A stretch of DNA of 64,000 bases from Parapedobacter pyrenivorans (GTDB lineage: Bacteria; Bacteroidota; Bacteroidia; Sphingobacteriales; Sphingobacteriaceae), in contig NZ_BMER01000004.1 of NCBI RefSeq assembly GCF_014636865.1, positions 62,001 through 126,000 of the forward strand. Direction: 5' to 3'. This document shows, piece by piece, positions 35,270 through 53,133 of the stretch. Position 1 is the stretch's first letter, and every line of letters begins with the position of its first letter. A program made the position numbers and the translations under genes. Below the pieces are notes generated by a model that saw only the letters and a list, made by a program, of their open reading frames with translations, did not search any database and was not told where the DNA came from.

Positions 35270-35710
35270 TTATTGAACTATGGGATCCCCAAAGCAACAG
35301 GGCTTCATATCATTCAAGAAAAATCTTCGGCAATTTTCGATATTCTTGTGAGCAAGGGAAAATCCACGACATTTCTGGGAAGACCCCATAATATTACTTT
35401 TTACGGTTTTCTTTTTTTCCCTGATCGATACTTTCATCCCCAATGATTCAAACTCGTTGACGATCGCTTCCTGATATTTACCAAGATTAAATTCTGTATC
35501 CACATCGAGTAATGAGAAATCCAGATCTTCCGAGAAGCGATCCAATCCATAAAATATCCTTAACGCTGTTCCCCCATAAAAAGCTGCCTTTTCAAAGAAA
35601 CCAGCACGATAAAGTCCGGCAAGCGCAATCTCTTGCATGATTTCCCTCAATGCGTCCTTTGCTTCCTGTTCGTTTGCTGGTTTGTAGCTATCCAGCCATT
35701 CCTTAATCAT
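35270..35710 (-). pseudogene. AbiEii/AbiGii-type nucleotidyltransferase toxin, truncated
   Basis: The nucleotidyltransferase core is present (FYGGTALRIFYGLDRFSEDL then DFSLLDV). After KKKTVKSNIMG the frame no longer resembles the family, and the protein ends at 146 residues instead of the usual about 250-300. The toxin is probably inactive. It overlaps its antitoxin gene by 4 bases. Confidence 0.75.
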
Positions 35711-36351
35711 AACTGTTCGATCATTTTTAAAACCATCAATAAGCTATCCCTTTTGGGCGCATCCGTAAGCCATCCATGTATCGCCCTTACATCCAAATCT
35801 TTTAATCCCGATTCATCCATCCGCATATCATCGACAAGATAATCATAGGCGTTTCTGATGCTTCTCAATGTCAGTCCAGATGTGCTTACTATTTTGTCGC
35901 ATAACGCTTTTTCCGGTGAGGCTACAATTGCATATTGATTGGACGATAACCGGACCATGTCTAGTCCAAAGGAATAATAAGGCAACGGAAGGCGGTAGTA
36001 CGTGAATAATCCCATTGCTGTTTTAAAAGTACGGGATGCTTTTGTCGTCATGGAAGAAATCTCATAAATCCGTTCTGGTATCAGTCCATGATACGAAAGG
36101 GCTGTTTCTACTGATACGTAACTGGGGCCCGATAAGTGGTTTGCCACAATTAGCGCATCCGGCTTTTTCTCTGTCGCCGAAGGCCCTGCAATGTATAACC
36201 CTTTTTTTAGTGGTACCAGAAACCCCCGGGCTTTCAAACCCAAAACCTTATCGTTTGGACGCTTGTAATCTTTCAACCATGACATCAATAGTTGATGTGG
36301 TAATGGCTGGTCAGCATGAGTATCTATAATCCGGGTAATTTCCATATACAT
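35707..36351 (-). CDS. AbiEi-type antitoxin
   Basis: A 214-residue protein: LKARGFLVPLKKGLYIAGP is the winged-helix part. SYVSVETALSYHGLIPE and YAIVASPEKALCDKIVSTSG are the C-terminal AbiEi landmarks. Type IV pair with the nucleotidyltransferase downstream. It is intact although the toxin is broken. Confidence 0.87.
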   Translation of the reverse strand: MYMEITRIIDTHADQPLPHQLLMSWLKDYKRPNDKVLGLKARGFLVPLKKGLYIAGPSATEKKPDALIVANHLSGPSYVSVETALSYHGLIPERIYEISSMTTKASRTFKTAMGLFTYYRLPLPYYSFGLDMVRLSSNQYAIVASPEKALCDKIVSTSGLTLRSIRNAYDYLVDDMRMDESGLKDLDVRAIHGWLTDAPKRDSLLMVLKMIEQL

Positions 36352-38687: not shown

Positions 38688-40508
38688 ATGAATCTAGTAA
38701 AAGTTAAAATTTCAAATTTTAGATGTTACCAACAGGAAGTCGAGGTAGATATAGATAGCTTAACGACGCTGGTCGGTAAGAATGACGTAGGTAAGTCTAC
38801 CGTGTTGGAAGCACTTGAAATATTCTTTAATAATGCGACAGTAAAGATAGATTCGTCAGACGCGAACGTCTATAGTGCGAGTGATGAGGTTACAATTACC
38901 TGCGAGTTTGATAATCTGCCGGAAAAGATTGTCCTAGATTCAGGAGCGGTTACGAATTTGAAGGAGGAATTTCTTTTAAATGAATTTGGTCGATTGGAGA
39001 TAAAAAAAGTTTATGATTGCAGTAAAAAGACACCGACCGTTGAAGCTTTTATTTTGGCTCTTCACCCGGTAAATACCCCATATAATAACTTGCTTGACTT
39101 AAAAGAAAAAGAATTACAGAGTTTGGTTAAACAATTGGGATTGGATGCATCGCTGAAAGGAAACCCTGGCATGCGCAAAGCAATATGGAGCTCAGCAGAT
39201 TCTCTTGAAATGGATAAGGTTGCAATGGCAGTTTCCAAACCGAAGGAAGACAGTAAGCGCCTTTGGGAGCAAATCGATTCATATTTGCCATTTTTTGCAT
39301 TGTTCCAAAGTGATAGAAACAGTAGCGACGCTGATAATGAGGTTCAAGATCCTATGAAAGCCGCTATTACCGCTGCTTTGTCGGAAGTTCAGGAAGATAT
39401 CAATCGCATACAAACTAAAGTGCGAGAGAAGGCAGAAGAAATTGCCCAGAATACTTACGATGCGCTACAAAAGCTAGATCCAAGACTGGCGAAAACATTG
39501 GCACCACAGTTTACACCACCCACACCGGCTAAATGGAATGGACTTTTCACTGTTAAAATGGATACAGAGGACGGTATCCCATTAAACAAACGCGGAAGTG
39601 GCGTAAGAAGGATGATATTAGTTAGCTTTTTTAAGGCAGAAGCAGAACGTCGGTTGCGTTCCAATAATAAGAGAAGCATCATTTACGCCATCGAAGAACC
39701 AGAGACGGCTCAGCATCCGAATAATCAGCGCATATTAATAGAATCATTCAAAAGTCTAGCTGCCGAGCCTGGTTGTCAAGTGCTTTTAACTACCCATAGC
39801 CCTGGCTTGGCGTCAGAGTTACCGGTCGATAGCATACGATATATAGAGAATATTAATGGTAGCTTGCATGTAAAAGCGGGTGTTGATGTTTTTGCGGATG
39901 TCGCTGCGGCATTAGGATTGACTCCAGACAGCCGGGTGAAGTTGCTGATTTGTGTTGAAGGACCAACAGACGTACAGGCTTTAAAGAGTCTAAGCAGGGC
40001 GTTGTATTTAGAAGATCACACTATACCCGATTTATCTACCGATCCTCGTGTTGCTTTCGTATTGCTAGGAGGATCAACGTTAAAGCATTGGGTTGATCAA
40101 CATTACCTGAAAGGAATAGGTTGTAAAGAATTTCATTTGTATGATGCTGATGTTGCTAGATATGCTGCATCTGTTGAAGAAGTTAATGCTCGGGGAGATG
40201 GCTCTTACGCAACGTTGACTAATAAGTATGAGATAGAATGTTATTTGCATTGCCAAGCTATTCTTGAGGGATGTGGTGTCGAAGTCGTAGTAAATGATCA
40301 TCCCCAAGATGGATGGACCGTTCCGAAAATTTTCGCTGAAGCTTATAGCACAGCAAAACAACTTGACGGTAGACTTAAGGATAACACTGCAAAGACCTAC
40401 CTTGCCAACAATGCCTTTCCCAATATGACCTCGCTTATGATTAAAGAACGTGATTCAGTAGGAGAAGTGGAGAGTTGGTTTAGAAGAATGGCTGAAATGA
40501 TGATTTAG
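38688..40508 (+). CDS. OLD-family ATP-dependent endonuclease (AAA plus TOPRIM)
   Basis: A 606-residue protein. Walker A GKNDVGKS (30-37), ABC-type signature RGSGVRRMIL, Walker B region IYAIEEPETAQHP and H-loop LLTTHSP. The C-terminal TOPRIM has E424 (CVEGPTD), the acidic pair D486/D488 (LYDAD), and KYEIECY. OLD enzymes nick or cut DNA and act in phage defence, alone or with partners such as GajB; no UvrD-like partner follows, so it is probably a class 1 or novel form. A 69-residue gene follows after 12 bases. Confidence 0.88.
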   Translation: MNLVKVKISNFRCYQQEVEVDIDSLTTLVGKNDVGKSTVLEALEIFFNNATVKIDSSDANVYSASDEVTITCEFDNLPEKIVLDSGAVTNLKEEFLLNEFGRLEIKKVYDCSKKTPTVEAFILALHPVNTPYNNLLDLKEKELQSLVKQLGLDASLKGNPGMRKAIWSSADSLEMDKVAMAVSKPKEDSKRLWEQIDSYLPFFALFQSDRNSSDADNEVQDPMKAAITAALSEVQEDINRIQTKVREKAEEIAQNTYDALQKLDPRLAKTLAPQFTPPTPAKWNGLFTVKMDTEDGIPLNKRGSGVRRMILVSFFKAEAERRLRSNNKRSIIYAIEEPETAQHPNNQRILIESFKSLAAEPGCQVLLTTHSPGLASELPVDSIRYIENINGSLHVKAGVDVFADVAAALGLTPDSRVKLLICVEGPTDVQALKSLSRALYLEDHTIPDLSTDPRVAFVLLGGSTLKHWVDQHYLKGIGCKEFHLYDADVARYAASVEEVNARGDGSYATLTNKYEIECYLHCQAILEGCGVEVVVNDHPQDGWTVPKIFAEAYSTAKQLDGRLKDNTAKTYLANNAFPNMTSLMIKERDSVGEVESWFRRMAEMMI

Positions 40509-40793: not shown

Positions 40794-42506
40794 ATGACTA
40801 TTGAGCAACTTAAACGCCTAAGGGAGAGCGAAGACAATATTGAATTCAAGGAAGCTAAACGGAACTTTCCGTACAATGGCGGCTCGCATCGCGAGCAGTC
40901 CAGCCGGAGGAAATGTGTATTAGGGTACATTACCGCATTGAGCAACGAAGGGGGTGGAATGTTGGTGTTGGGTATGGCAGATCAATTGCCGCACCTAGTG
41001 GTCGGCACCGATTTTGCAGTAGGTAAAATTGGCGAAACAGCCGATGATATTTACTCCCGTTTACAGATGCGGGTGGTTATAGAAGAGCTGTTTGAGGGTG
41101 ATAAGAGGATAGTTGTATTCCATGTGCCATCACGCCCCGTTGGCAAATTAATGAAGTTTGAAGGTGTTCCATTAATGCGGGTGGGAGATAGTTTGCGCAA
41201 TATGTCAGATGAGGAAATGTTTAAGGTGCTTTCGGAATCGGAGCCAGACTTTTCGGCTACGTTCTGTACTGGTGTTACTATTTCCGATTTAGACGACGAG
41301 GCTATGGAAATTCTAAAAGCACAGTATGCGCAAAAACAACAGAACCCTGCGTTCAGGTCACTTTCAAACCTGCATGCACTTAATGATCTTGGGCTGATTA
41401 TCGACGGCAAAGTTACCTATGCTGGGTTGATTTTGCTTGGTAAACGAGATGTAATACAACGATATTTACCCCAAGCGAAAATTATTTTGGAATACCGAAA
41501 TCAAGAGTCGCAGATTCCTTTTGATTGGCGTGAGGAAATATGTGACCCTTTGTTCATCGCTATTGACCGCGCTTGGCAATTGATTCATTCACGTAATTCG
41601 TTAGATCATCACAGCGTTGGTCCTTATATTTTCGATATTCAGGTGTTTGACGAATTGGTTATACGTGAGGGGCTTTTGAATTCGGTTACCCACCGTGACT
41701 ACCGGTTGACGTCTGAGGTGGTTGTCAAGCAATACCCCCGTAAACTCGTTATTAACAACCCCGGAGGCTTCCCAAAAGGGGTTTCCATAGAAAATCTACT
41801 TTCCGTAAGCAGCACCCCACGCAGTCGATTGATTGCCGATGTGTTGCTTAAAACCGGTTTGGTCGAGCGCTCTGGACAAGGTGTCGATAAGATATTTGCT
41901 CTTACGCTACAGCAAGGGAAGCCGATGCCAGATTATAGCTATTCCGACCCGTTTCAGGTATCGTTGGTCCTGGATCACCGAGTTATTAATGGTAACTTTC
42001 GCCAGTTTTGTCAGCTGGCTGCCGAACAATTGGATGAAGGGGAACACTTGGGAGTATATGAAATCATGACGTTGGTTGTCGTTCGTGACGGATTATCCAT
42101 CCGTCCTGAATATACAAGTAGTTTAGAAAGGCTTGTGGCACTTGGGTTGGTTGCTCGTGTTGGTTCTAATAAAAGTAAGAGATATGTTCTTGGAGGTTTA
42201 TATGAAGCCCTGACAGCCGAATCTGCCAAGGTAGGCAATTATACCGCCCATGAAATTGGTATCATTGCTAACCTGTTTAAGAATAAGGATGACACAAACC
42301 GTATGGGGGCTATAGTCGATACATTTGGAACATCCTATACACGGGAGCAGGTTAAATTTCTGGTTGAAAAATTAGTCTCCGATGGCGTATTGGTCAAGGA
42401 GGGTAGGGGTAACACAACTTCGTACAGGTTGGCTCCGCAATTTTTTTCTAATGAAGGCAATTTGGAAGGTGAGATTTATAGCCACTTGGAGACGGCACAT
42501 AGCTAA
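40794..42506 (+). CDS. AlbA_2 (Schlafen-like) domain ATP-binding protein
   Basis: A 570-residue protein. The N-terminal AlbA_2 domain has ESEDNIEFKEAKRNFPY and YITALSNEGGGMLVLGM. The middle HATPase_c_4-like region has NSVTHRDY, KLVINNPGGFPKG and GLVERSGQGVDKI. Winged-helix modules lie at the C-terminus. Such proteins are regulators or defence effectors. A remnant of the same family lies at 23611-23780. It is likely downstream of the OLD nuclease. Confidence 0.87.
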   Translation: MTIEQLKRLRESEDNIEFKEAKRNFPYNGGSHREQSSRRKCVLGYITALSNEGGGMLVLGMADQLPHLVVGTDFAVGKIGETADDIYSRLQMRVVIEELFEGDKRIVVFHVPSRPVGKLMKFEGVPLMRVGDSLRNMSDEEMFKVLSESEPDFSATFCTGVTISDLDDEAMEILKAQYAQKQQNPAFRSLSNLHALNDLGLIIDGKVTYAGLILLGKRDVIQRYLPQAKIILEYRNQESQIPFDWREEICDPLFIAIDRAWQLIHSRNSLDHHSVGPYIFDIQVFDELVIREGLLNSVTHRDYRLTSEVVVKQYPRKLVINNPGGFPKGVSIENLLSVSSTPRSRLIADVLLKTGLVERSGQGVDKIFALTLQQGKPMPDYSYSDPFQVSLVLDHRVINGNFRQFCQLAAEQLDEGEHLGVYEIMTLVVVRDGLSIRPEYTSSLERLVALGLVARVGSNKSKRYVLGGLYEALTAESAKVGNYTAHEIGIIANLFKNKDDTNRMGAIVDTFGTSYTREQVKFLVEKLVSDGVLVKEGRGNTTSYRLAPQFFSNEGNLEGEIYSHLETAHS

Positions 42507-42918: not shown

Positions 42919-44160
42919 TTAATTTTCCAACTGACTTTGACGCAAATAATCATACCCCAAAATTCTATTTACAGCTTGTATTTCCCTATAGACTGATCGT
43001 CCTTTTTTAATTATCTTATCGATAATGATCTGAGAAACATCAATTTCTTGGAGTAATCTGATAGCAACAATGATATCTAGCACTAGACTGATATAGAGCA
43101 GTTCGAAATCTGAGAAAATATTTTGATTTTCTATATTACTGTGAACATGGTAGTCACGGGATCGAATGATATTTGAAACAAAATCGTCTAGGTTTTCGTT
43201 TGTAACGTCTGTCATCTTAATGATGAGTTCGTCGTTGTCTTTAAGAAATTGTTTGAGTGTGGGTTTCTTCTGTTGTCCAAAACGCTTGCCGTATGCTTCC
43301 AAGCATGAGATGGAATTGGTAAATCTTTTACTATGACTTAATTTTCCGGTAGTTTGATTGTCCAATAGCTTGGTGACACAAAAGGAAAATGATTCGTTGT
43401 TAAATATGCTGTCAAATAGGCGAGGTAAATCCGGCAATAAATCATTAAAATCGATTGTAAAATATGTAAAGGTGCTACCCTTATATACGTCATCCTGGAA
43501 ATATAGACTTCCCCAGCTTTCGCAATCCAAGCATTGGAAATTGAAATAATTAAACTGGCAGGTCTGTCCGCTTATGAATTGAATGAGTTTTTGAAAGGTA
43601 CGATAAACGTCGATTGCACCAATTACCTTGACCGTTGTATCAGAAGTGAATTTAACCGAACCTCGTGTTTTTGAACTAAATTGGCCCCGCCCGAATGTGC
43701 TGTCTACCGAAAAGACCAATTCAATAGCTAACTTAATGTTCTCAATTCTAAAAGAATGGAGTTCTTCAGTGTCGAAATTTAATATTTTATTTGATAAATC
43801 TATGTCAAGGTTTGGTTGTCGCCAAATAGTTAATTCGTCATTAGATATACTGAACTTTTTGAATACAAGGGAACGCGGTTCCACTAAATGATGTGGATGT
43901 ATAAAACAGTATTGTGGCAGATATGTGGCATTGCTTGTCAGGCCGCTCGACGTAGATTTAATATGGCAATCCAAAAAAGTCAGATATCCAAGTCCTGTAA
44001 AGGCTCCAAGTATTGTTTGATGCTTGTAATGTACCTTATCGGAAACTAAATTTGTTTCTAATGACACTTCTCCATCTTTGAATGTCAGTATACAAAAGCA
44101 TCGCTTGGCCTCGTTTTCTGAAAACCAGACCTCACCATGATATCTTTCTTTTTTTAGCAT
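42919..44160 (-). CDS. ApeA-like HEPN protein
   Basis: A 413-residue protein. The N-terminal part (YHGEVWFSENEAKRCFCILT, then the strand region to about 200) resembles the ApeA N-terminal domain; the C-terminal part is a HEPN domain with RSRDYHVHSN (333-342), giving an R-x4-H RNase motif. ApeA is an abortive-infection effector that cuts tRNA on phage infection. Last gene of a three-gene leftward operon, 30 bases after its neighbour. The gene is AT-rich. Confidence 0.75.
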   Translation of the reverse strand: MLKKERYHGEVWFSENEAKRCFCILTFKDGEVSLETNLVSDKVHYKHQTILGAFTGLGYLTFLDCHIKSTSSGLTSNATYLPQYCFIHPHHLVEPRSLVFKKFSISNDELTIWRQPNLDIDLSNKILNFDTEELHSFRIENIKLAIELVFSVDSTFGRGQFSSKTRGSVKFTSDTTVKVIGAIDVYRTFQKLIQFISGQTCQFNYFNFQCLDCESWGSLYFQDDVYKGSTFTYFTIDFNDLLPDLPRLFDSIFNNESFSFCVTKLLDNQTTGKLSHSKRFTNSISCLEAYGKRFGQQKKPTLKQFLKDNDELIIKMTDVTNENLDDFVSNIIRSRDYHVHSNIENQNIFSDFELLYISLVLDIIVAIRLLQEIDVSQIIIDKIIKKGRSVYREIQAVNRILGYDYLRQSQLEN

Positions 44161-44190
44161 ATTACTAACTTCTTGATTTAAATCTACATG

Positions 44191-45756
44191 TCACTGTAAG
44201 AATCTCTTTTCTAATGTATTGAGTGTGAATATCGATTTTTCTAAAATATCTTCAAATACGTCCTTGTAATTACTATCAGATAAGCCAAAATATTCCATGG
44301 CCTTTTTACAATCTTTATTGGTTTCACTGAAACTATGTGCGATCAATCCAGATCGCAGACTTTGAAGATGCCTTAAAAACACAAACATGTCCGGAATAGT
44401 AATATCATGATACTCTAAGAACTTTTCAAGCTTTCCTATACCTTTGATGCCTTTAGGAATTTCAATACCTTTTGCTAATTCTTTCTCATTTAATCTATCT
44501 ATCGTTAATTTGACGACGGTTAGCGCTTGTTCACAGAAGGCCTTTATGTTGTTTGATGATATGCAATGAAGGGCCGTAAACAGATGCTCATCTTGTTTTG
44601 CGAGGGGTTTATATAGCTTCCATCCAAATTTCTGTTCCCATTTTTTGTTGAACTCTTCGTATTTATCTTTAAAGAACAAATCTATTGCATCTGGCTGTTC
44701 TGCCCAATTGCCATCGATCATCGTCCGGTAATACGTACGGCTTAACCCCATTCCAGCCTTTGGAGGAATGTTATACTGCTTCCAATGGAGTTGTTCCGTA
44801 TGTGGCAAAGATTTTAAATCTGATAAAAATACGGGTACGTACTCTCCGACGTTGTTATCACATTTTAATGTGAAGAATCTTGACTTAACACCGAATCCGT
44901 CTACTTGGTATTTGCCGGGGTCGTTATAATACTTATCAAGAACCTCTTTTTTAAAGAAAGTAGTTTTAAAGTCAATCCTTTCAGCGTCGCAACTCTCATA
45001 AATTAGATTGCCTTCTTCGTCATACCCTGTAATGAAAGATTCATATTTATATTCGGGGTCAAAATGAGTTTTCTTTATCGGATTAGGACCGATAAAGACC
45101 TTGCCCATGATCCAGCTCTGAAATTCTCCGGCAATGTTGCGAATAAGATGGCTATAAGTCGAATAGTCATTTTGAATCAGCTCTTCTTTAAAAGCGACTT
45201 GCCAATCTTTAGGTATCTCACTTGTAAGTCGCATATAATCAAAGCATACTACGAGATGCATATCCCGAATGGTAATGTATTCTTTTAAGTACCTAATTCT
45301 AACTCTAATTTGTTTGGGTTCGACCACTATTACTTCATCCAATTCTCCGTAGTCATCGACGTAATAGAATGTTCTATTTTGCTTGTTCTTGCCTCGCTCA
45401 TACAGTTTAAAATATAGCACAAATTCTTCTGAGATATCGATATAATGCTCATAGCCATCGTTATATGAAAAGTGTTTGTAAAACAGAAAGGGCTCAACGC
45501 CTTCTTCGTCATATGTTTTATAAGTATTGTCTCCATATACAGATGGTTTGCCTTCGCTACCTTTTCGAATAGACCAGGAATATTGTTCACCCTCTGCTTG
45601 GCGTTTACTTTCAGAAATCAGATAACAAAAAATACCTGCGGAATCTTTAAAGTCAATGGTGTCGCTTCCATAAATCTTTAACCAACCATCGCGGGAGACG
45701 AATCTTGATTCGATTTCAGCTATTTTATCTGTTAAAAGAAAGTAGTCCTTTTGCAT
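44191..45756 (-). CDS. unknown 521-residue protein of candidate defence operon
   Basis: No family recognised for the first 400 residues (many Tyr/Asp/Glu, strand-rich). The C-terminal about 130 residues are helical and contain SLRSGLIAHSFSETN, with R468 and H474 in an R-x5-H spacing like HEPN active sites. It lies 8 bases after the STAND gene and 30 before the ApeA-like gene. The role is inferred only from context. Confidence 0.7.
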   Translation of the reverse strand: MQKDYFLLTDKIAEIESRFVSRDGWLKIYGSDTIDFKDSAGIFCYLISESKRQAEGEQYSWSIRKGSEGKPSVYGDNTYKTYDEEGVEPFLFYKHFSYNDGYEHYIDISEEFVLYFKLYERGKNKQNRTFYYVDDYGELDEVIVVEPKQIRVRIRYLKEYITIRDMHLVVCFDYMRLTSEIPKDWQVAFKEELIQNDYSTYSHLIRNIAGEFQSWIMGKVFIGPNPIKKTHFDPEYKYESFITGYDEEGNLIYESCDAERIDFKTTFFKKEVLDKYYNDPGKYQVDGFGVKSRFFTLKCDNNVGEYVPVFLSDLKSLPHTEQLHWKQYNIPPKAGMGLSRTYYRTMIDGNWAEQPDAIDLFFKDKYEEFNKKWEQKFGWKLYKPLAKQDEHLFTALHCISSNNIKAFCEQALTVVKLTIDRLNEKELAKGIEIPKGIKGIGKLEKFLEYHDITIPDMFVFLRHLQSLRSGLIAHSFSETNKDCKKAMEYFGLSDSNYKDVFEDILEKSIFTLNTLEKRFLQ

Positions 45757-45764
45757 TTTATTTA

Positions 45765-48700
45765 TTAGTAGAAGTCAACGGGATTATTAATTGTTACGCT
45801 TGACGTCTGTCGATCGGCTTTCCCTTCTATTTCAAAAGAAGCTAGCTGTATAAATTTTTGGAAACTTTCAAAAAAGGGTTTTAGATCAACTTCTGAACAG
45901 TACGTATGTATAAGTTTGACGCAGTTGCCCGGAAAATAATAAAGACTTTGGAAGTATGTGCCATCACTTGATTTAGAAGTGATTGCGTTAATTAGAATCT
46001 CTTTGATTTCTAATCGAACAATTTTCTTTGGATAAGTTTTGTACAACTCTAATTCTGCCAGAACAGTATAGTCCGCATTTGGATATTTTGCAATTTCAGC
46101 AGGCTTAAGTCCCAGCTTTTTTATAAAGCTACGGTCTTCGTCGGCAAGAATACCTTGGTCGTATCTTTTTTTGCTACCTGTCCTTGTGCTTTTATCTGCT
46201 GTCGCGGTTACGTATTTTATTCCGGCATTTTCTAATCGTTGAATACCTGCCTTTTCTCTATCAGAAATACGTACATAATATCGTAAAAGGTCGAGCATTG
46301 ATTTTAAATCTTCAGCGCGATTGGATCGTATTACATTTTCTACGTCACGATACTCTACTTCGCTTCTACCATAGTCATACTGTCTAAGAGTGTCGTGCAA
46401 TTGACAGTTAAAAATTTGCTCAGGCAGCTTGTTAATAAATTTGGGTGATAACAGAAACCAATCAATTCTTAAACTGTCAATATTGAAATTGCTGTGAATA
46501 AATGGTAGGATTGTGACTTCCTTATTTTCGATATACTCCACCAATAGGTGTCGGTAACCTTTTTCGGATTGGTTCTGAATGGAAGTAATTAGGTTAATGG
46601 ATTGTTCTTCATTGATGAAATTTAGTCTTTCGAATATTGGAAGAGCGTTGAAAATGCTATGAAGGCTATAATCTTTCCTGTTATAATATTTACTCCAAAA
46701 GGAGCTAATTTGACTGATGTCTATTTTTTTGCTACGATGATTTACTAACCTGATGTAATTAAGAATCTTTTTATGGAAGTCGAAACTGCCTTGGGCTTTA
46801 TATTTGGATACAAATTCCTCAAAATCTAAATTTAAATAGTCATTATTTTTGTGAATGTAGCCCAATGCAAAGATATTGTCCTTCGCTTCATTCAATATCC
46901 AACTTGCTTGGTAAAGGCTATAACCTTTTTTCTGAAAAAGATTTTCAAGCCTATTAATCGCAGATATTTCGCTTTTATCGACATATTCCGTAATAATGTC
47001 TGTAAAATCTTGAAAATCGTTAATGTTTTTGTGAAGATAAAGGTTTATCAAGATGAACCTAAGACGTTCATAAGTATACTGGTCGAAATCAGTGTTTAAC
47101 AATTTTTTGATTTGCACCACAGATCCTGGTTTGCTTTGCCTGTCAAAAAATTCACGTTCGTTGTTGATATCATCTTCGAGCTTTTCTTTAAACTGGGAAG
47201 TATCATAATGTTGGTCACTATGTAGATTGTAAAGGATAGAATTGTCTCCACTTTTGATATAATACAACATTGCAAATAGGTAACCATTACTGGTTATATA
47301 TTCTTCGTCAAAACCTAAGAAGTCCAAATAAGTCAGATAGGTGAACAAGAAATCGTTTGATGTCGAAATGTGGTCTCTGTTGATTGTGTTAATGATCAAG
47401 GAAAAATCATAAATATTTCCAAGGGTTATTTCATCTTTACTGATATCTGAAAGATTGTCTCTTAGCTGGTTGTAAAACGCTCTTAAGCCTTCAATGTCAA
47501 TTGTTTTGGAGAGCAATTCTTCGAAATAATTGATATCAGTATATTTTTTGAAGATTTTTGTTTCGGCGTTTATCGGTAGGTTAAAGGAATTTAGTCGCGA
47601 TAAATACTTAATCTCGCCAGACATGATTGAGTTCGTAACCTTCGTATTTACCCTTTGCTTCGTTCTCGAAAAATTCGTAGTCCTCCTTCTTAAATATGTG
47701 TTGAAGCTGTCATGGAACAATGTGATTCTATTCAGCCTAATTTCGAATAGGTAAGGGTGTTCATTAACAAATTCTATAATATAGGAGCCAAGTTCTTCTC
47801 CCATCAGTAGTGAAATCTCTGATTTGAAAAAATAGGAGTAAGAACATAAAAACAACGATAACGAGGTAAGCCCTTTTTCATTTTTCAGCACTGTACCATA
47901 GTACTCGTCTATACTTTGTAAGCTGTTAATGATGGGAAGTTCTTTGGTTTTTTTAAAGTGTTCAGCAATATATCTTACAAGTATTGGGTAGCCATTGGTA
48001 ATCCTGTATATTTTTTCGACGATTTGATGCTCTTGTATTTGAAAAAGAGAGTTTAATACCTTCTTTGTTTGGCCCTTATTCCAGTTTTTTAGAACAATCT
48101 TCCTCCATTTAATTTCAAAAAGCAGCGGTCTGGATAGTACAATTATCTTGTTGTATATTTTGGCTTTATCTATAAATTGAATGAAATTTTCCAATTCCCC
48201 GCTGTTGTAATTTTCTACATGATCAAGGCCGTCAATGATAATTGTGTTTTTACTTTTTCTTAATTTCTCTAATATTCGAGTCTCATCGTAATGCTTCTGA
48301 TCGTGAAACAAAAGCTTTGAAATATTAAAAAGAAACTGACCATACTTTAACCGAGTTAGATAATCTTTGTCTTGACTACCTATCCAAAATCGGTATACAA
48401 GCGGTGATTGGGTTTTATTCTTTAATTCTTCGACCAAATGGCTTTTCCCAACTCCTGGCTTGCCTTCTATAAATATAATATTTTCTTTAAGCAAAATGCC
48501 TCGTCCAACGATTACAGTCTTCTCTGTGAGTTTGGTGTTAAATACGGGAATAGATGGAAGGTCAATCAAATCAATCGTCCATTTTCGTTTGTCGAGTATT
48601 TCATTAAAATACTGTTTTATTATTCTTTCTCGGTTCTCATTAGCTTTGTATAACTTATCTGTAATGCCGTCAATTTTCATTCGATCAATACTCACAATAA

Positions 48701-49046
48701 ACAGATTATCTGTTTGTAAAGCGTTTATTCCAAAAATTTTACAGTTTGTTTCTATATCTATTTCCTTAAAAAATAAAATATTGATATGGCTTGAAAGTTG
48801 ATGCGTGTTGTTTTTGATTTTAACTTGGTTGTTCGATATTTCAATGTCAGATAATTTTACTCCAGCAAAGTCTTTTATCTGTACAAAATAGTGTTCGCTG
48901 TCTGTAGTTAGGTGAATATCATCAAAGTTGTGATTAACATCTGCTTCTATGGATATATGCTTAATTTTTCGTTCCACATCCATTTTGGACAGAAACAATA
49001 AAGTAACCTGCTGCTGATAAGTATATCCACTGAAAGCGTTTCTCAT
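45765..49046 (-). CDS. nuclease-STAND NTPase (Avs-like defence protein)
   Basis: A 1093-residue protein. Residues 1-60 hold a PD-(D/E)XK-like nuclease start: SGYTYQQQV, D42-D43 in NFDDIHL, and Q56-I57-K58, as in Cap4/Mrr-like effectors. P-loop EGKPGVGKS (194-202), Walker B TIIIDGLDHVE with D272, then a winged-helix region and about 650 helical residues that may sense a phage ligand. Avs proteins have this effector-STAND-sensor order. First gene of a three-gene operon; strongly AT-rich relative to flanks. Confidence 0.75.
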   Translation of the reverse strand: MRNAFSGYTYQQQVTLLFLSKMDVERKIKHISIEADVNHNFDDIHLTTDSEHYFVQIKDFAGVKLSDIEISNNQVKIKNNTHQLSSHINILFFKEIDIETNCKIFGINALQTDNLFIVSIDRMKIDGITDKLYKANENRERIIKQYFNEILDKRKWTIDLIDLPSIPVFNTKLTEKTVIVGRGILLKENIIFIEGKPGVGKSHLVEELKNKTQSPLVYRFWIGSQDKDYLTRLKYGQFLFNISKLLFHDQKHYDETRILEKLRKSKNTIIIDGLDHVENYNSGELENFIQFIDKAKIYNKIIVLSRPLLFEIKWRKIVLKNWNKGQTKKVLNSLFQIQEHQIVEKIYRITNGYPILVRYIAEHFKKTKELPIINSLQSIDEYYGTVLKNEKGLTSLSLFLCSYSYFFKSEISLLMGEELGSYIIEFVNEHPYLFEIRLNRITLFHDSFNTYLRRRTTNFSRTKQRVNTKVTNSIMSGEIKYLSRLNSFNLPINAETKIFKKYTDINYFEELLSKTIDIEGLRAFYNQLRDNLSDISKDEITLGNIYDFSLIINTINRDHISTSNDFLFTYLTYLDFLGFDEEYITSNGYLFAMLYYIKSGDNSILYNLHSDQHYDTSQFKEKLEDDINNEREFFDRQSKPGSVVQIKKLLNTDFDQYTYERLRFILINLYLHKNINDFQDFTDIITEYVDKSEISAINRLENLFQKKGYSLYQASWILNEAKDNIFALGYIHKNNDYLNLDFEEFVSKYKAQGSFDFHKKILNYIRLVNHRSKKIDISQISSFWSKYYNRKDYSLHSIFNALPIFERLNFINEEQSINLITSIQNQSEKGYRHLLVEYIENKEVTILPFIHSNFNIDSLRIDWFLLSPKFINKLPEQIFNCQLHDTLRQYDYGRSEVEYRDVENVIRSNRAEDLKSMLDLLRYYVRISDREKAGIQRLENAGIKYVTATADKSTRTGSKKRYDQGILADEDRSFIKKLGLKPAEIAKYPNADYTVLAELELYKTYPKKIVRLEIKEILINAITSKSSDGTYFQSLYYFPGNCVKLIHTYCSEVDLKPFFESFQKFIQLASFEIEGKADRQTSSVTINNPVDFY

Positions 49047-49178: not shown

Positions 49179-49988
49179 TTATGACCGTAATTGGATTTCC
49201 GATACGGAAAAACTGTTTATTAATTTAGCATCGCGTAATATTTTTTTAATATTTTCTTTTTTCCATTTTTCCATACGGGGATGACAAACAACTTTCATCT
49301 CAAGTGAGGATAAATCTATCTGTTTAGATAGGATCATGGCTGTCTCCTTGTTTTCTAACAATACGGATTTATTTATCTTGATAACATATCTTACCTCTTT
49401 TTCATGTGCGTAACTTTTGTCTTTCCTAAGACCGACCTTCTTTACTTTATTGAGAGATTCTTGTGAAAATTTGTCTTCATCTAGAAAATCTTGATAGTCT
49501 ACTTTTCCACAGTAGAAATTATGAATGGGTATTTTTGTGTCTGGATCAGGAACAAGAGATTCATTTAAGTTCTTGAAAGGGATTTTTATAGCGACACCAT
49601 CTTGATTTGAATATAGGTTCCACATAGCCATTGATTCCCGTACTTCATGAAACCAACACAATACATAATGAGTAGATTGTAATTCTATGATTTTTTGTGT
49701 TCTCCCGCTTAAATTTGTTTGTGTACCATCTTTGTTTTTGTTAAAGGCGGAAAGGAGGTTTTCTGTAATATTGAAATCTCCTTCCTTATATTGACTAGAG
49801 AGCTTAACGATTTTGCGAATAATTTCGGTAGTGATTCCCTCAAAGGGGTCTTCAAATGAAGTCATTCTGTTGAATACGAATCTTTTAAAATTGATTAGAT
49901 AAATGAATTTGTGGATATCGATATATCTCCACAGATAATCGTTGTCTTTTGGAAGATGTTTATTTGATATAATCTTCAACTTCTTCAT
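49179..49988 (-). CDS. DUF2971 family protein
   Basis: A 269-residue protein: YLWRYIDIHKFIYLINFKR, RMTSFEDPFEG and CWFHEVRESMAMWNLYS match DUF2971. LRKDKSYAHEKEVRYVIKI is the C-terminal landmark. It is common in defence islands, function unknown. It begins 36 bases after the HEPN-like gene and probably ends that operon; 130 bases separate it from the STAND gene. Confidence 0.78.
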   Translation of the reverse strand: MKKLKIISNKHLPKDNDYLWRYIDIHKFIYLINFKRFVFNRMTSFEDPFEGITTEIIRKIVKLSSQYKEGDFNITENLLSAFNKNKDGTQTNLSGRTQKIIELQSTHYVLCWFHEVRESMAMWNLYSNQDGVAIKIPFKNLNESLVPDPDTKIPIHNFYCGKVDYQDFLDEDKFSQESLNKVKKVGLRKDKSYAHEKEVRYVIKINKSVLLENKETAMILSKQIDLSSLEMKVVCHPRMEKWKKENIKKILRDAKLINSFSVSEIQLRS

Positions 49989-50024: not shown

Positions 50025-50969
50025 TCAAAACGATTGATCATAAAACTCGCCCATATCGCCAAACTTGAGGACGTAAGAGTAATCAAGATATTTATACATT
50101 TTTTTGCTTTCAGGAATTAGACCTACTGCAACTACATTGGGGTGTGCGCAAAAGGATGAGGCTAAATGGACAAATATTTGTTCGAAAATACTTAGATAAT
50201 TTGGCGTTAATATTTTCAGAAATTCATAAATACTTATCCTTTCAAGTTTGGCCTTTTTATGCTTTAGTTCGATAGTCGGCGTAAGTATATCATTATTAGG
50301 TTTTTGACTAAAGTTAGAAACCGTTACTGTTGATAACCTGTGGTCTAAACCATTTCTTAATTCTCTTATAATAGTTGTGAAGTACGTTATTCTATCCATA
50401 GCTTTATAGAATTGACTGTTTTGTCCATATTTATTTTTAACTATCTCAACAAAAGTTGGAAAATGGGATTGTTTTGTGATTTTTTCACCCGCATAGAATA
50501 TAGAGAGAATTGATATCAAAATTTGTTCAAGATGATCACAACGCTGAACTATAGCTTTACATCGAGGTTCCAGATGCAGAATACTAGGTAGCCTGAAATC
50601 TTCATTATTTTTCCTTCGCAATTCATAGTCGTCGATTTCCTTTTTCTCCATAACATTGTATCTTTGGATATCATCTTCTAAGACAAATATTTCCGATAAA
50701 ATTTCATTAACAAGCGGTATAATTCTTTCGATTTCAGTGACCTTGATGTATTCTTTTTTAAACAATACCAAAGCTGTTAAAAAGATACGGCCGACAACTT
50801 CTGAATTAATTCCCTCGTTTACTATTAGTTTCTGGCTAGGAGAATTACTCGAAAATCCCGTGACTTCATAAATTGCCCGCTCTTTAAGAACAACAACCTT
50901 ATCACCAAAGAATTTCATTACTTGTATACCCCCTTCACTAGGATTACCGATATCTATTTTTCCACTCAT
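50025..50969 (-). CDS. HEPN-like protein
   Basis: A 314-residue protein. The C-terminal helical half contains IIRELRNGLDHRLSTV with R205-N206 and H210, a typical HEPN R-x4-H ribonuclease motif. The first 90 residues are unassigned. It overlaps the next upstream gene by 4 bases, so the two products are likely partners. Confidence 0.6.
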   Translation of the reverse strand: MSGKIDIGNPSEGGIQVMKFFGDKVVVLKERAIYEVTGFSSNSPSQKLIVNEGINSEVVGRIFLTALVLFKKEYIKVTEIERIIPLVNEILSEIFVLEDDIQRYNVMEKKEIDDYELRRKNNEDFRLPSILHLEPRCKAIVQRCDHLEQILISILSIFYAGEKITKQSHFPTFVEIVKNKYGQNSQFYKAMDRITYFTTIIRELRNGLDHRLSTVTVSNFSQKPNNDILTPTIELKHKKAKLERISIYEFLKILTPNYLSIFEQIFVHLASSFCAHPNVVAVGLIPESKKMYKYLDYSYVLKFGDMGEFYDQSF

Positions 50970-51811
50970 ACGCTTGCTTCATTTTTCTCGATTAACCTCA
51001 ACAATGCATGGATAGTAGCAAGATAATGATAAAACATCCAGCTCAACCATATCGCTTTGTCATAGCCTGTTTTTTGTATTTCATTATGATGTCTAATTCC
51101 GAAGTTGTTGGCGATGTTGAATAGTTCGTTTTCATCTTTCTTGTCTAAATATATTTTAGCCTTTGGACGCAAATACTCCAGTACATCGACAAGTTCTCTG
51201 ACGGCCTCATGCCTTTCAGATATACTGGATTTATACCGTCTAAACTTCAATATTGATTTTTCGATCCGTGATGAAACGTTTTGTTCTTCTTTTGTCGGGA
51301 TGCCAGCAGTCAATATGCTGTGTAGCCCTTGGTCTCCAAGACTAAGAATTTCCCCGTTCACTGATAGCTCGTAAGGTTCCATGTAATCTTTTAGAATCAG
51401 GTTCAATAATTCCCTAAAATGTTTCTGTCCTGCTTCATCATCGAAGGTATGATAATGATAGCCGCAATCGTTCCATGAATGATAATCTCCCTCAATGCCT
51501 TTAGAGCAGTGATCGTGAAGAAATTCTATGACGTCAAATAAATCATCTTCGGAGTAATTGTCTATTTTTTGGTAGACAGGATATAAGTTTTCTTTTCGAA
51601 TATTTATGAATATTATAGAGTCGATGTCTCTACCTAATTCTCCTATACACTCCCCATCAACACAGTAATAGCCAAAATACTTCTGGAAATAGCCTTCTTC
51701 AGTCATCTTGTTGTATACCGCCATAAATAAGCGTTTTAGAACTGGTAAATTAATTTCCTGGCCGGAGACCATTTTCCCAGTTCTAATAGAATAGTATTCC
51801 CTCTTTTTCAT
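50966..51811 (-). CDS. hypothetical protein with Abi-like C-terminus
   Basis: A 281-residue protein. The C-terminal part (FNIANNFGIRHHNEIQKTG, then IWLSWMFYHYLATIHALLR) resembles the helical end of several abortive-infection proteins. The first half has an acidic, aromatic-rich stretch (DYHSWNDCGYHYHTFDDE). It overlaps both neighbours by 4 bases, giving a tight operon. Function inferred from context only. Confidence 0.6.
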   Translation of the reverse strand: MKKREYYSIRTGKMVSGQEINLPVLKRLFMAVYNKMTEEGYFQKYFGYYCVDGECIGELGRDIDSIIFINIRKENLYPVYQKIDNYSEDDLFDVIEFLHDHCSKGIEGDYHSWNDCGYHYHTFDDEAGQKHFRELLNLILKDYMEPYELSVNGEILSLGDQGLHSILTAGIPTKEEQNVSSRIEKSILKFRRYKSSISERHEAVRELVDVLEYLRPKAKIYLDKKDENELFNIANNFGIRHHNEIQKTGYDKAIWLSWMFYHYLATIHALLRLIEKNEASV

Positions 51812-52551
51812 AAATCGCTTATTGCGCTGTCGTCACCTGGTCTCCTACTAGCAGTTAAATAAACCCTCCTCCCAAACTCATTCGTCTTACTCTTATCCAG
51901 CAATGGCACCCCACTTTTCCTATTCGTATAATGATTGATTACGCGAATCATATTTCTGGGATGAAAATTGTCACCGAAATGTTTGCGGCATCGCCGCAGT
52001 ATATCCAAGGCGGTTTTAGTCTCATCGAAGAAGCCTTCCGAAAGCAGCGCATCAATGAAACTTTGTACTTCATCAAATGGCACAACATTCAACGGTGTCG
52101 GAAGCTCGACCAATTTCTTTTCCTCAATAACCGTTGTGAATGGTTCGTATACGTCTCTATTCTTTTCGTTTCGCGGATCGATAAATTCATCCCATCTGGT
52201 TGGAGTTTTTCTCTTGGTTATTTCCCAAACCCAAAGCCGAACTTCATTTCGATATTTAGTCACCTTAAGGTGATAGGTATCTTCTTCAACTACCGGTGGC
52301 GAGAAGGTGGATAGAGGCTCATTGAATATCAGCTCAAGATAGTTCGTGTCGATGATGTTAAAATGGGTGTTCTCAAATGGATCTTCCGCATCGCGGAAGA
52401 AAAAGTCGTGCTTACCCAACAAGAAAGAGCATTCGTACGCGGAGTATCCCCATTTTTCACGAAAAGCTTTTGTACGGTAAATTTTTTCAAAGGCGAGGCC
52501 ATTGAAAATTTGTTTTTTGGTGTTTTTCTTGAAAGGCTTAGGCTTATCCAT
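51808..52551 (-). CDS. hypothetical protein linked to XRE regulator
   Basis: A 247-residue cytosolic protein, aromatic-rich in the middle (YECSFLLGKHDFFFRDAED), with a helical end (FIDALLSEGFFDETKTALDI, MIRVINHYTNRKSGVPLLDK) that may bind DNA. It lies 42 bases after the XRE gene and overlaps the next gene by 4. The pair looks like a repeated regulatory unit of Sphingobacteria; family not recognised. Confidence 0.65.
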   Translation of the reverse strand: MDKPKPFKKNTKKQIFNGLAFEKIYRTKAFREKWGYSAYECSFLLGKHDFFFRDAEDPFENTHFNIIDTNYLELIFNEPLSTFSPPVVEEDTYHLKVTKYRNEVRLWVWEITKRKTPTRWDEFIDPRNEKNRDVYEPFTTVIEEKKLVELPTPLNVVPFDEVQSFIDALLSEGFFDETKTALDILRRCRKHFGDNFHPRNMIRVINHYTNRKSGVPLLDKSKTNEFGRRVYLTASRRPGDDSAISDL

Positions 52552-52593
52552 GCCAATTCTTTGTTCTGGTCACGGAGGCAATTTAATAAAAAT

Positions 52594-53133
52594 CTATGGC
52601 CTTTTAAACAACGCTTCTTCTTCGCTCTTGCGGATTAATTTGCCTTCGTCCACCGCTACCTTCACGATTGCTGTGAAATCATTATTGGTCCAAACTTTAT
52701 CAGCTTGCTTCCCACAGAATGCAGCAATCTCAGAAACGGTATGCCAATCTTTGAAGAACTTTTCTTTCTTCTCTACTAAAAGGAGATGAAGCATTCCTGT
52801 TTGTTTAAGTTCTTTGGGTATATCAATTACCTTTTTAGGAACCAATATTTCATCCATTGCGTTAGCTGGATAGAAATCTTCCAATGTGTACATATGATCT
52901 AATCCCAAAATCCTCGCCCGTTTAGAAAACGCACGTGCCAGTTTATTTAGATTTTCATCGGTGAATCCATTCTTTCTAAAACTGCTTTCAATACTTCCTA
53001 AAAGGTTGTTGTCAGAGTCAGGATACAAAATCCTAGATACATCCCTTTGAGTAAAACCCAATTCCATTCTTATTTGCCGTATTCTGTTGATTATATAAAG
53101 TACTATAGCAGGTACTAGGACTGGCTCTTTCAT
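52594..53133 (-). CDS. XRE-type transcriptional regulator
   Basis: A 179-residue protein. HTH at about 15-60 (IRQIRMELGFTQRDVSRIL, then NNLLGSIESSFRKNGFTD); a second helical part with FKDWHTVSEIAAFCGKQADK. First gene of the leftward defence-like operon (52594 down to 49179) and probably its regulator. Confidence 0.75.
   Translation of the reverse strand: MKEPVLVPAIVLYIINRIRQIRMELGFTQRDVSRILYPDSDNNLLGSIESSFRKNGFTDENLNKLARAFSKRARILGLDHMYTLEDFYPANAMDEILVPKKVIDIPKELKQTGMLHLLLVEKKEKFFKDWHTVSEIAAFCGKQADKVWTNNDFTAIVKVAVDEGKLIRKSEEEALFKRP

Follow-up and report, generated by a model that had tools for sequence, protein, structure and literature searches.

Do three tightly spaced genes in a 64,000-nucleotide stretch of Parapedobacter pyrenivorans DNA (hereafter the window) constitute one antiphage system, or do they represent separate systems placed side by side? 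An earlier note on this DNA proposed the former, with P0003, P0002 and P0001 as joint components. From the collective evidence of this study, the genes are understood, with moderate confidence, as three probably independent single-gene systems, in which P0002 would be a self-contained sensor-effector combining Avs-type recognition with a HEPN ribonuclease (RNase). Taken as a single-gene sensor-RNase, which it probably is, P0002 has an unusual composition. Full-length homologues exist for each of the three, which are therefore regarded as real genes.

45765-49046, minus strand: P0003, 1093 amino acids (aa), first of the three in reading order; nuclease-like N-terminus (D43, Q56, K58), STAND-type ATPase, helical C-terminus
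44191-45756, minus strand: P0002, 521 aa, middle gene
42919-44160, minus strand: P0001, 413 aa, last gene

Domain architecture of P0002

The middle protein is composed of three parts.

Residues 1-226: Avs2/3-type C-terminal domain, by fold and sequence-profile match
Residues 227-357: conserved middle region, with the motif EQLHWKQYN at 321-329
Residues ~375-521: HEPN-like domain, with R468-x5-H474

The N-terminal part matches the C-terminal domain of Avs3 in fold. When it was compared with the C-termini of Avs2-like proteins (a deeper set, including nine plasmid matches retrieved), the score was reached by none of 60 shuffles, at a low hhalign probability; whole P0002 against the Avs2-like set gave a weaker result, with one of 100 block shuffles reaching the score. 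The PADLOC accessions tried for Avs3 were Avs2 models, and a search for the Cap4 family in 198 genomes returned matches in 7, none of them Avs3-sized. The sequence profile of P0002 found no convincing relative among solved structures (best E 0.25; Avs3 is absent among the matches listed), and neither the C-termini of the large STAND proteins L075-L077 nor that of P0004, itself lacking a PDB relative at E ≤ 0.001, could be aligned significantly with P0002. A 2192-aa STAND protein (L074, 651-7229, minus strand), with a nuclease-like N-terminus and a match to the ATPase part of the PADLOC Avs1b model, shows a C-terminus that resembles P0002 by eye, the alignment being without significance. A further half-domain copy within P0002 (residues 232-316 against 100-182) was considered and is unsupported, 3 of 60 shuffles reaching the score.

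At its HEPN-like C-terminus, P0002 probably carries the second HEPN-type site that had been suggested as a possibility in the earlier note. R468 and H474 are placed as an R/H pair in the P0002 model and are invariant in 42 of 42 sequences. The alignment (A1) comprises P0002 itself together with 41 relatives, drawn from 40 of the 46 loci and leaving aside the broken or partial loci L018, L021, L023, L028, L042 and L044 and a fragment in L039. Conservation in the family is highest at residues 268-332, which lie beyond the Avs-like part.

A family that convincingly covers P0002 was found in none of Pfam, NCBIfam, PADLOC and PHROGs. Assignment to a known defence family was rejected, since P0002 itself matches nothing in Pfam, NCBIfam or PADLOC; scans of the 42 family members against these three collections gave weak single-member matches only and no ATPase family. 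Because it is without match to any ATPase family, P0002 is not considered an Avs protein. It likewise has no match in PHROGs and, at E ≤ 0.001, none in the viral structure library. The open-licence titles and abstracts searched describe no P0002-like protein, which may be in print elsewhere.

Placed against known systems, P0002 shares with Avs2 and Avs3 the domain that Avs3 and Avs2-like proteins carry at the C-terminus, but positions it N-terminally, lacks an ATPase family match and has a HEPN-like effector instead of the N-terminal nuclease of Avs2/Avs3. ApeA, encoded here by the next gene, similarly combines a beta-rich N-terminal part with a C-terminal HEPN; however, P0002 has no ApeA Pfam match, and the P0001 profile misses P0002 relatives. 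Tha, too, is one protein that ends in a HEPN domain and has an R-x4-H type motif, yet Tha-1 has 301 aa and, in the available part of the source, no N-terminal domain discernible by HHpred (PMC11087260), whereas P0002 has 521 aa with an Avs-type domain; the comparison with Tha is by description.

Proposed mechanism and its significance

The simplest reading, drawn by analogy, is that P0002 may act in the manner of Tha, using an Avs-type domain for recognition. In the mechanism proposed, residues 1-226 would bind a conserved phage protein, a change that the middle region (227-357) would relay. The HEPN domains, we infer, would then pair to form an active RNase that cuts RNA, with the effect that growth stops and protection is conferred by abortive infection. 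The large terminase is the first candidate for the ligand, a guess made because of the Avs-type fold. According to the available text of one report, Avs2 recognises its target via a C-terminal sensor domain, Avs1-3 targeting the large terminase and Avs4 the portal (PMC12724215). This report argues against an alternative that we regard as unlikely, though deserving serious consideration, namely that P0002 defends as a single-gene HEPN protein whose N-terminal domain binds a phage product other than terminase, or represents a scaffold common to Avs proteins. The alternative draws on the match being one of fold only, and fold shows no function, and on the strongest conservation lying at 268-332, beyond the Avs-like part. 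It is further consistent with Tha, a single HEPN protein said in the available text to be triggered by phage minor tail proteins (PMC11087260), and with the response of some Avs proteins to other ligands, those given for Avs1-Avs4 in the accessible part of the source being terminase, portal and Ksap1 (PMC12931631).

The sensor-RNase reading of P0002 can be extended, tentatively and as a possibility short of probable, to a widespread STAND-free 'mini-Avs' family, in which an Avs2/Avs3 phage-protein recognition domain would be wired through a middle module (EQLHWKQYN) to a HEPN RNase, recognition thus being uncoupled from ATP-driven oligomerisation. Avs proteins correspond, in bacteria, to the NLR immune receptors, with recognition that reportedly works through the STAND ATPase. 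The primary paper on Avs target recognition is reportedly that of Gao et al. 2022. If true, the coupling of the Avs2/3 tail-end domain to HEPN would point to recognition as a portable module; the 521 residues of P0002 would offer a small protein for the study of recognition and activation; and a testable function would be provided for a family whose plasmid members are now annotated as hypothetical proteins.

Distribution and surroundings of P0002 relatives

Searching the contigs of 84,980 species genomes located the 46 loci, in a non-exhaustive scan seeded by short, exactly matched peptide patterns; several loci have flanks trimmed by contig ends. The relatives belong to Bacteroidota, Gammaproteobacteria, Alphaproteobacteria, Chloroflexota, Cyanobacteriota and Actinomycetota (plasmids), phyla being inferred from organism names. 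Plasmids contributed 10 records (four with at least 80% coverage), all annotated as hypothetical proteins; one relative was found among viral contigs and none in the phage records searched. In a Pseudomonas syringae plasmid (L116, 3197-9518), the P0002 relative comes first after gmtY, a VPA1269-family gene and gmtX, directly following gmtX, in a cargo slot of a GMT island. GMT islands carry anti-phage systems, as described in the accessible part of the source (PMC12039261).

These occurrences bear on the proposal, improbable in our assessment, that P0002 is not a defence protein and serves the cell or a plasmid instead, in RNA processing or as a toxin. Plasmid copies and the GMT-island copy disfavour it, as do the Avs-type domain and the patchy presence of the family, which is found in one of nine genomes of the genus, the genome under study, and in none of the eight others searched. 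Its support comes from the lack of an assigned PADLOC or NCBIfam family and from the housekeeping genes, including those for enolase and methylmalonyl-CoA mutase, that adjoin relatives. Scanning 123 of the 162 neighbouring open reading frames (ORFs) gave at most 3 matches for any PADLOC or Pfam family, and defence-type and housekeeping families both occur; from such mixed neighbours, context alone is no proof of a defence role for P0002.

After P0002 itself, the biggest gene cluster common to these loci covers 8 of the 46. In L020 and L022 (3 bases), L033 (2 bases) and L039 (ORF overlap), the P0002 relative has a codirectional gene no more than 30 bases upstream; pieces of broken copies set aside, other codirectional upstream genes are at least 41 bases off. 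In the two Flavobacterium loci L020 (6194-11623) and L022 (6173-11665), a SEC-C protein of 1259 or 1266 aa precedes the P0002 relative by 3 bases, the only tight P0002 pairing seen twice with the same partner. Two diverged relatives (64% and 30% identity to P0002) are located ~3.8 kilobases (kb) apart in the Draconibacterium locus L005 (4535-6151 and 10001-11578).

P0003, P0001 and the three-gene proposal

The nuclease-STAND assignment made for P0003 in the earlier note is borne out by the N-terminal nuclease-like region and by a Walker-motif STAND-type ATPase, with AAA/STAND/NLR families among the matches to the ATPase region. Walker A (residues 195-202, GKPGVGKS) and IIDGLDH (270-276) are both invariant among the homologues aligned, as are D43, K58 and K201 across P0003 and three homologues. 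With the P0003 model, the sole Foldseek targets at E ≤ 0.001 are two Avs4 chains bound to portal; superposition over the whole length gives a TM-score of 0.13 and a root-mean-square deviation of 42, the P0003 model being weak. Avs4 differs in size (1541 residues in chain 8dgf_A versus 1093 aa), and P0003 matches no Avs model in PADLOC, only mad8 at E 0.028. P0003 is probably an Avs4-like nuclease-STAND protein and a system separate from P0002. No relative was found on the plasmids searched. The genes after P0003 relatives vary: by eye, L061 has a SIR2-like protein and L064 a 581-aa protein that bears a nuclease-like motif; L065 has a 746-aa protein.

P0001 is an ordinary ApeA, as the earlier note had called it: ApeA_NTD1 (85.2 bits against a cut-off of 25.5, E 7.1e-24) and HEPN_Apea (39.3 against 24.4 bits, E 1.1e-9) both exceed their curated Pfam cut-offs. 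Matches occur in 5 of 296 genomes including its own, one close (G057, 45% identity, keeping R335-x4-H340) and three weak (G012, G277, G241); plasmids and viral contigs searched hold none. The G057 relative stands alone, flanked on both sides by opposite-strand genes. P0001, a neighbour of P0002, is probably a separate system.

That the three belong to one system was the claim of the earlier note that did not hold, whereas its domain calls did. The arrangement itself is as had been described: three minus-strand ORFs, separated by 8 and 30 bases and sharing AT-richness, G+C being 0.321-0.380 across 42-50 kb of the window versus 0.466-0.494 across 54-64 kb; the residues it had named (D43/K58/K201 of P0003, H474 of P0002, H340 of P0001) are present and conserved. 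Conserved co-occurrence was looked for by tblastn and not found. P0001 relatives are absent from all 46 P0002 loci, and a P0003 relative appears in one (L020), 6.7 kb off with three ORFs between; profile searches over 810 ORFs from these and ten further loci agree. Five other full-length P0003 copies (G174, G839 = L020/L065, G901, L061, L062) have differing neighbours, none adjoined by P0002 or P0001; the P0003 relative in G023, present as two fragments, was left out of the locus count. As the three families are found apart in the P0002 loci, the P0003 loci and the G057 locus, an outcome that the earlier note itself had named as refuting, the three-gene system was rejected. The codirectional AT-rich run extends beyond P0003 by five further upstream genes, starting at 53133, so that the three do not form a unit distinct from their neighbours. 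The promoter pattern TTTG-N17-23-TAnnTTTG, which we take to be the relevant consensus, is matched 8 times in the window, where 2.95 matches are expected, an uninformative result, and none in the 64 kb lies ahead of P0003, P0002 or P0001 on their strand. The close spacing on a single strand, the shared low G+C and the lack of a promoter-like match ahead of P0002 or P0001 speak for a three-gene system newly assembled in this lineage, with the STAND nuclease sensing phage and two HEPN proteins as further effectors on one transcript; given the separate occurrence, this reading is very improbable.

Other genes in the window

The stretch is probably part of a packed defence island. Upstream of P0003 by 132 bases lies a gene for a 269-aa DUF2971 protein (49179-49988, minus strand; PADLOC candidate PDC-S31, E 2e-20), preceded by four codirectional genes (50025-53133, minus strand), three with 4-base overlaps, that encode an HTH-like protein of 179 aa and proteins of 247, 281 and 314 aa. 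The 281-aa protein matches PADLOC PDC-S32, with AbiJ_NTD4 under its cut-off, and has relatives in 50 plasmid records; the 314-aa protein, for which no plasmid relative was found, shows an R-N-x3-H motif by eye. On the plus strand, 38688-40508 encodes a 606-aa ATPase of the AAA_15 family, for which AriA is the best match in PADLOC (E 1.6e-69); its C-terminus is TOPRIM-like by eye, and its role may be in defence of the OLD or PARIS type. The gene is followed at 40794-42506 by one whose 570-aa product contains Schlafen AlbA_2 and HATPase_c_4 domains and matches, in part, the PNTD region of a pAgo-associated model in PADLOC. Two overlapping minus-strand genes at 35270-36351 resemble, by eye, an AbiEii/AbiEi toxin-antitoxin pair.
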